Source: Chroococcidiopsidaceae cyanobacterium YX2bin18 (GTDB lineage: Bacteria; Cyanobacteriota; Cyanobacteriia; Cyanobacteriales; Chroococcidiopsidaceae). Taken from it: a DNA stretch of 64,000 nt. Every line of letters begins with the position of its first letter. Position 1 is the first letter of the stretch. The notes under the pieces were generated by a model that had not been told where the DNA came from, did not search any database, and saw only the letters and a list, made by a program, of their open reading frames with translations. Of this stretch, positions 17,227-64,000 are shown one piece after another. The stretch covers positions 1 to 64,000 of the forward strand of contig JAUJND010000008.1 of the NCBI GenBank assembly GCA_030446505.1, written 5' to 3'. The position numbers and the translations under genes were made by a program.

Positions 17227-17615
17227 GGGGCTTTAATGGTTTCGACAGGTTGGCGAACGCTGCTCTGTGATACAGGTCGAGAGTGAGTCTCCTCTCGTAA
17301 ATCAAAGGCTCAAAAAAAAAGTAAATGCGAACAACATTGTACCTTTTGCTCGTAAGGCTGCCACTGTAGCTGCCTAAAAACCTCTAATCAGGTCCGAGCG
17401 TCTATAGTCTGACTCCGTTAAAGGCTATAGACCAACCCCCAACGGATGCTCTAGTAAGTGTTCTCTGGGTGGCTTGCTAGCTAAGACTTAACCAGTGCAT
17501 CCCACCGTTCGGGATAAGGAACGGTTCCCGCCTTGAGGATTAGATAGGATAAACCTGTGAATGAGCGGGGGGTAAATACCCAATTTGGACACGGGTTCAA
17601 TTCCCGTAAGCTCCA
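17227..17615 (+). ncRNA. ssrA: tmRNA
   Basis: The 5' end GGGGCTTTAATGGTTTCGAC and the 3' end with the T-arm GGGTTCAATTCCCG followed by TAAGCTCCA form the tRNA-like domain. The tag frame begins after GTAAAT and reads ANNIVPFARKAATVAA before TAA, a typical cyanobacterial proteolysis tag ending in VAA. The molecule rescues stalled ribosomes and marks the unfinished protein for degradation. The genome does not appear to encode the terminal CCA (CTA follows). It is a one-piece tmRNA, about 389 bases. Confidence 0.95.
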
Positions 17616-17636
17616 CTAGATACAATAATTTTCTTT

Positions 17637-62611: not shown

Positions 62612-63262
62612 CTAAGTGCCAAACGTTCGATCGCCTGCATCTCCCAACCCAGGCACAATGAAACCCTGCTCATTTACCCTTTCGTCGATGGTTGCGGTAT
62701 ATACGATTAAACCCGGATAAGCCGCACTCAGTTTCTGCAAAGCTGGGGGAGCTGCTACTACTGAAATAATCCGAGTTAAGGCTGGATCAGCGCCGCGAGC
62801 AAAGATTTCGGCCATTGCAGCCATAATCGAGCCTCCAGTTGCCAGCATCGGTTCTGGGATTAAAACTCGTGTTTGGGGGTCAAACCGTTCTGGCAATTTG
62901 TTTAGGTAACAACTTGGAGAGAGCGTTTTTTCATCCCGCACTAAACCAAGATGGTAAACCGATGCTAAAGGCAGTAAAGTTTGCGCTCCCTCAAATAAAC
63001 CTAGCCCTGCCCTCAGAATTGGCACTACTGCGATCGGCACTTCTGGATTAATCAGAGTAGCAGGGCAGGGAGCCAAAGGAGTTTGCACTATCGCTTCTTC
63101 AGTGGGCAGCCAGTCTCGAACCGCCTCATAGGTAAGCCAGCGTCCTAATTCCGTCATTGCACTACGGAAAAGGACTGAAGGCGTGGCAGCATCACGGGCG
63201 ACACCTAGCCAGTGCTTAATTAACGGGTGAGGGGGAACGTAGACACGCAATTGCAGCGTCAT
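62612..63262 (-). CDS. upp: Uracil phosphoribosyltransferase
   Basis: 216 residues. It salvages uracil with PRPP to UMP. Landmarks: VVPILRAGLGLFEGAQTLLP (Arg/Ala loop), HLGLVRDEKTLSP, the PRPP-binding region PEPMLATGGSIMAA (first D replaced by E/P in a variant DPMLATG), VVAAPPALQKLSAAYPGL and the uracil-binding end GFIVPGLGDAGDRTFGT. Complete. Faces crtH and a candidate sRNA across about 430 bases. Confidence 0.95.
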   Translation of the reverse strand: MTLQLRVYVPPHPLIKHWLGVARDAATPSVLFRSAMTELGRWLTYEAVRDWLPTEEAIVQTPLAPCPATLINPEVPIAVVPILRAGLGLFEGAQTLLPLASVYHLGLVRDEKTLSPSCYLNKLPERFDPQTRVLIPEPMLATGGSIMAAMAEIFARGADPALTRIISVVAAPPALQKLSAAYPGLIVYTATIDERVNEQGFIVPGLGDAGDRTFGT

Positions 63263-63372
63263 AGCCTAGTAGGGCGATTATCTAAGGTCTGAATCATCAT
63301 ACTCTCTCTAGGTAGAGCTTGAGCATTACCAGAGGATATTCTAAACTTGTTGAAAATTATTTGCATTAACTA

Positions 63373-63402
63373 TTGACATCTATTCTCAATCAAGCTTATA
63401 TT
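63373..63402 (+). promoter_or_regulatory. Sigma-70-type promoter of the candidate sRNA
   Basis: Perfect -35 TTGACA (63373-63378) and -10 TATATT (63397-63402) with an 18-base spacer. Expected transcription start near 63409. Confidence 0.65.
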
Positions 63403-63408
63403 GTCTTT

Positions 63409-63479
63409 CAGTGTTCTCCTCTCTTTAAAGATCGGCAGACGGGATTAGTCGGCAGTAGCAGACTGATCCCTTTTTTTTT
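63409..63479 (+). ncRNA. Candidate intergenic small RNA (about 70 nt)
   Basis: Bounded by the promoter above and a strong intrinsic terminator: GGGATTAGTC (63441-63450), ten-base loop, GACTGATCCC (63461-63470), nine T. No open frame lies between. The unpaired 5' part contains a CU-rich stretch, GTTCTCCTCTCTTTAAAG, complementary in type to Shine-Dalgarno sequences, as in the cyanobacterial sRNA Yfr1, but the Yfr1 core motif itself is not present. Confidence 0.6.
63441..63479 (+). terminator. Strong intrinsic terminator without an upstream gene
   Basis: 10-bp stem (one wobble) followed by TTTTTTTTT. The gene to the left (upp) runs the other way, so this must end an RNA that starts in the spacer. 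Confidence 0.85.
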
Positions 63480-63692: not shown

Positions 63693-64000
63693 ATGCCTAC
63701 TACATTTTCTGCTCAACCTCCCGTTCTTAGTTTTGATGTCATTATTATTGGTTCTGGTATTGGGGGACTGGTGAGCGCAACTCAGCTAGCAGCAAAGGGC
63801 GCTAAGGTACTGGTACTAGAACGCTACATAATTCCTGGGGGCAGCGCTGGATACTTCGAGCGAGAAGGGTATCGATTTGATGTCGGGGCATCAATGATTT
63901 TTGGGTTTGGTACTCAAGGCACTACTAATCTGCTTACTAAGGCGCTGGATGCCGTAAATGTGAGCCTAGAAACAATTCCTGACCCAGTGCAAATTCACTA
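63693..64000 (+). CDS. crtH: Carotene isomerase, 3' end outside window
   Basis: First 102 codons from ATG at 63693 ([20 protein letters not shown]). FAD-binding dinucleotide fold [20 protein letters not shown] with the acidic end of the second strand ([20 protein letters not shown]) and [14 protein letters not shown], the start of CrtISO/CrtH. The enzyme converts poly-cis lycopene to the all-trans form in carotenoid synthesis. The frame is open to the window edge. Related desaturases (CrtI) cannot be fully excluded from the N-terminus alone, but [15 protein letters not shown] fits CrtH best. Confidence 0.88.

Follow-up and report, generated by a model that had tools for sequence, protein, structure and literature searches.

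The enterobacterial RyhB is a Fur-repressed small RNA (sRNA) that shuts off iron-using proteins at iron shortage. The cyanobacterial IsaR1 is a trans-acting sRNA that is activated by iron stress and prevents iron-rich proteins from being made. In PCC 6803 it measures 68 nt (PMC6202907), and no other non-coding transcript of that organism is induced nearly as strongly when iron is depleted (PMC5386190). Fur represses the IsaR1 gene, homologues of which are widely conserved in cyanobacteria (PMC7760821); its published targets are fed1, petJ, sufBCDS, sodB, petABDC1, acnB, hemA and chlN (PMC8136909). Here I compare with it a locus from a window of cyanobacterial DNA (the whole 64,000-nucleotide stretch that was analysed).

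The gene and its promoter

The features of the locus, in order along the window, are:

62612-63262, minus strand: upp, uracil phosphoribosyltransferase; divergent neighbour, its place kept in most genomes of the family and many of the order
63350-63366, plus strand: upstream Fur-box-like palindrome TTGAAAATTATTTGCAT, putatively bound by FurA
63373-63378, plus strand: -35 box TTGACA, near-invariant among homologues
63373-63389, plus strand: second Fur-box-like palindrome TTGACATCTATTCTCAA, extending over the -35 box and into the spacer
63397-63402, plus strand: -10 box TATATT, TATANT in nearly all homologues
63410-63479, plus strand: probable IsaR1-type sRNA of about 70 nt; covariance model match of 85.5 bits, E 1.6e-18
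63410-63423, plus strand: 5' pairing block AGTGTTCTCCTCTC, predicted to pair with GAGAACACT or GAGAGGA in sufB, fed1 and chlN
63430-63438, plus strand: second pairing block GATCGGCAG, its predicted partners being CTGCC/TGCCG ahead of sufB and fed1
63441-63470, plus strand: terminator stem-loop with a 10-bp stem, its pairs kept by compensatory changes
63471-63479, plus strand: terminator T run (T9), read directly from the sequence
63693-64000, plus strand: crtH, carotenoid isomerase, running off the window; in the same place in Synechocystis (TIGR02730)

An earlier note on this DNA had described, within 63373-63479, a TTGACA box, an 18-base spacer, TATATT, about 70 transcribed bases with no reading frame and a terminator with a 10-bp stem and T9, and the sequence is exactly so. 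The two promoter boxes together match the consensus at 11 of 12 positions. The transcript likely starts at A63410, 8 bases past the -10 box, judging from the position of that box and from the point where conservation begins. In the terminator stem, GGGATTAGTC (63441-63450) pairs with GACTGATCCC (63461-63470) over 10 bp including one G-U; the predicted fold of the sRNA has an energy of -23 to -24 kcal/mol, and that of an 81-nt stretch a z of -2.1. A simple terminator scan reported no site at the sRNA locus, probably because the loop exceeds the 8 bases that the scan permits. The sole overlapping plus-strand open reading frame has 45 codons and begins with TTG within the -35 box; in relatives it is broken by indels of lengths not divisible by three and therefore encodes no protein. 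The note had also seen a stand-alone gene whose terminator has no protein gene to serve, and this holds as well: the RNA has its own promoter and terminator, and upp runs away from it on the left. According to the covariance model the gene is single-copy in the window's genome. Elsewhere, the window carries a tmRNA gene (17227-17618; Rfam RF00023, 135.7 bits).

The two Fur-box-like palindromes are 17 bases each and lie 23 bases apart, the upstream one (63350-63366) falling outside the span that had been noted earlier. Measured against the Fur palindrome template TTGAGAATnATTCTCAA, which was taken from general knowledge, the upstream site has 12-14 of 16 matches in many homologues, and in one of them (L018) it is a perfect dyad, TTGAAAATTATTTTCAA. 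The second palindrome has 13 of 16 (p 0.005 against shuffles), a score to which the -35 box itself adds. In a set of 65 distinct promoters, the highest-scoring palindrome reaches a median of 13/16 matches with a median shuffle p of 0.005, and tandem Fur-like boxes are present in most homologues. Compared with the published 19-mer consensus for Anabaena FurA, AAATAAATTCTCAATAAAT (PMC4005646), positions 63376-63394 match at 14 of 19 (p 0.025); across homologous promoters the agreement is modest, with a median p of 0.06. The layout is that of a Fur-repressed promoter, and suggests that Fur represses the gene here.

Conservation and the neighbouring genes

The earlier note had proposed a covariance search for conservation of promoter and hairpin in relatives, and both are widely conserved. 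The covariance model finds one copy each in 297 of 391 Cyanobacteriales genomes and also matches a few other Cyanobacteriia; among the matches listed, none lies outside the class Cyanobacteriia. With a 126-base query from the window, most genomes of the family gave matches at 83-91% identity, and weaker ones turned up across the order. Conservation within the family, expressed as the mean percentage of sequences sharing the majority base in each segment, is far beyond chance over the sRNA element: 100% in the 5' block (the first 14 bases of the RNA), 97% in the second block, 90% from the -35 to the -10 box and 81-89% in the terminator and T run, as against only 47-55% in the flanking intergenic DNA. 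Among 32 diverse sequences the 5' block retains 12 invariant columns. Furthermore, compensatory changes, confined to the terminator stem, occur in five of the seven consensus pairs; the stems show 31 double-changed cells where 6.7 are expected, and none of 500 shuffles scored as high in covariation over the structure as a whole. Judged on these sequence comparisons, the element is a genuine stand-alone, single-copy sRNA gene.

Could the RNA instead be the terminated 5' leader of crtH, an attenuator starting at 63410 whose hairpin decides readthrough into that gene? In most genomes crtH, found by tblastn in most homologous loci, does follow the core on the same strand, at a distance of 88-381 bases. 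However, the spacer between the sRNA and crtH is of freely variable length and unconserved in sequence, and the most conserved part of the element is the 5' block, as in a trans-acting sRNA. At three loci of the same family (L003, L005 and L007) the sRNA has kept upp beside it, but the gene that follows is not crtH and is convergent, and at five others (L026, L036, L072, L073 and L075) both neighbours differ, yet the sRNA with its promoter and terminator is still present. The RNA thus persists after crtH has been lost, with eight loci that have no crtH downstream, and is independent of it. I consider the attenuator very improbable and reject it; readthrough into crtH in some lineages is possible.

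Several variants deserve mention. In L026 the 5' block is tandemly duplicated (CAGTGTTCTCCTCTAAACCGGCAGTGTTCTCCTCTC, 1540-1575), and upp and crtH are absent. L072 has, about 1 kb from the sRNA, a match to the Cyano-1 RNA family that stays below threshold (535-603; 35.2 bits, gathering score 41). In one genus (g56), represented by L032 (core at 1500, minus strand) and L033 (core at 1500), both pairing blocks are kept, as is the terminator in L032; the RNA lies downstream of genes that, judged by eye, resemble urease-accessory genes, and no Fur-like or -35/-10 promoter can be recognised for it. It is possibly a rewired or 3'UTR-derived variant.

Predicted pairing with target leaders

The earlier note had thought the CU-rich segment suited to pairing with ribosome-binding regions, and such pairing is indeed predicted for the leaders of sufB, fed1, chlN and acnB. 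These four and petC, all published targets of IsaR1, were tested in 11-12 genomes, with pairing computed as plain duplex energies without accessibility terms. The median predicted duplex is -26.6 kcal/mol for sufB (median shuffle p 0.0025), -26.3 for fed1 (p 0.005), -23.9 for chlN (p 0.0075) and -22.4 for acnB (p 0.02). The leader of petC, the sole petABDC1 gene taken and located through petA, gave no signal (median p 0.575), and likewise none in Synechocystis; as petABDC1 is a published target there, the petC test evidently misses the target.

For the window's genome, the energies of sufB (-33.5) and fed1 (-23.5) are both stronger than those of all 36 background genes, which come from the window and never reach p <= 0.02. 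There chlN gives a weak signal (p 0.18), and no acnB was detected in this genome, which is 73.5% complete. Reversing the sRNA loses most of the pairing signal. The predicted sufB duplex consists of AGUGUUCUC:GAGAACACU together with a long second block around CUUUAAAGAUCGGCAGACG. Upstream of sufB in this genome (L100), the leader complements the sRNA almost perfectly in two parts.

The second block of the Synechocystis sRNA is altered to CAGTAG, and CTACTG occurs in the ferredoxin leader there. With its own sRNA, Synechocystis fed1 pairs at -35.2 kcal/mol, as against -21.1 with the sRNAs of others; when fed1 and sRNA partners are swapped between Synechocystis and other genera, the energies are -18.6 and -21.1 kcal/mol. 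This advantage of the own pair, a single contrast, fits co-evolution of sRNA and target. A tentative and rather doubtful extension is that IsaR1 acts through two separate blocks that co-evolve with its targets, and that in genus g56 the RNA has been relocated beside the seeming urease-accessory genes, has lost its Fur-type promoter and has perhaps been rewired to a different signal. Two-block pairing is made directly testable by the alignment, the model and the target pairs, with the sufB leader as a candidate.

A mechanism can be proposed as follows. When iron is sufficient, Fe-loaded FurA would occupy the two palindromes, one of them over the -35 box and spacer, and hold the gene off. When iron drops, Fur would depart and the 70-nt RNA would be transcribed, ending at its own terminator. 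Its blocks AGUGUUCUCCUCUC and GAUCGGCAG would then bind the mRNAs of iron-using proteins (sufBCDS, ferredoxin, ChlN and AcnB) by pairing at their leader and ribosome-binding region, and in this organism the pairing would presumably block translation and so spare iron.

Identity and relation to known systems

The earlier note had called the sRNA likely undescribed, and here it can no longer be followed, since locus, size, promoter layout and targets match IsaR1. At 70 nt (63410-63479) and with its own terminator, the RNA compares well with the 68 nt of IsaR1. In the genus containing Synechocystis salina, all five genomes hold a homologue by model match (one record is S. salina LEGE 00031), and in four of the five a carotenoid isomerase gene follows about 60-105 bases downstream; the core reads AGTGTTCTCTTCTCAAGGATTCAG in most of this genus. 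For PCC 6803 itself, I take IsaR1 to start at 3164320 and crtH to be sll0033; an sRNA near position 3164320 was present in none of the Synechocystis-genus genomes examined. IsaR1 is presumably also the NC-181 of Hernandez-Prieto et al. 2012. The identification was made through published descriptions and the Synechocystis-genus homologues. On the coincidence with IsaR1 in locus and size, in the Fur-like promoter, in phylogenetic range and in four of the five tested targets, I put the probability that this stretch is the IsaR1 gene at about 95%.

The same coincidence would have to be accidental if this were an undescribed sRNA, unrelated to IsaR1, that shares its locus by chance. Such a reading could appeal to the missing Rfam match and to a comparison with the PCC 6803 RNA made by description, and I rate it as still less probable than the crtH attenuator. 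In Rfam 15 no family reaches its gathering score at the sRNA locus or in Synechocystis, and relaxed thresholds yield only chance-level matches at the sRNA. A full-text literature search for the core sequence found no cyanobacterial paper. The note had treated an Rfam match as the test of novelty, a test that fails here: IsaR1 is published yet matched by no Rfam family at either place. Thus, for cyanobacterial sRNAs a missing Rfam match is no sign of novelty. The sRNA that had been spotted by eye is real, yet by this identification already described; its novelty is low, and a few of the accompanying findings are possibly new. From the alignment, covariance model and target pairs an IsaR1 entry in Rfam could be built.

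A 2026 review gives the targets of IsaR1 in its Table 1 as 'upp, crtH', citing Georg 2017 (PMC13414033). These are the exact neighbours of the sRNA in the window, and neither mRNA has a pairing signal with it (crtH -11.4 and upp -15.0 kcal/mol, against a background median of -13.75). As both are also conserved neighbours of the sRNA gene, the likeliest explanation is that the review (PMC13414033) took genomic neighbours for targets.

The earlier note had likened the RNA to Yfr1 of cyanobacteria, and the likeness stands for the general mode of action, a CU-rich element directed at ribosome-binding sites, whereas locus and regulation differ. In S. elongatus Yfr1 is flanked by guaB and trxA (PMC6202907), and in Nostoc it has relatively high expression without marked response to light or nitrogen (PMC6974561), in place of which the present gene has Fur-like boxes; nor does any Rfam family match the sRNA. 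That it is a Yfr1-type sRNA is therefore the least credible of the readings weighed here. RyhB is a functional analogue only, and a sequence relation to it is not expected. The Synechocystis homologues (L078-L080) differ from the window in the second block (GATTCAGTAG in place of GATCGGCAG), in the 5' block (CTTC where the window has CCTC) and in the terminator loop, while pairing with petC is seen in neither. With IsaR1, finally, the sRNA has in common a length of about 70 nt, its own promoter with Fur-like boxes, the crtH neighbourhood, a single copy, and predicted pairing to the sufB, ferredoxin, chlN and acnB leaders.
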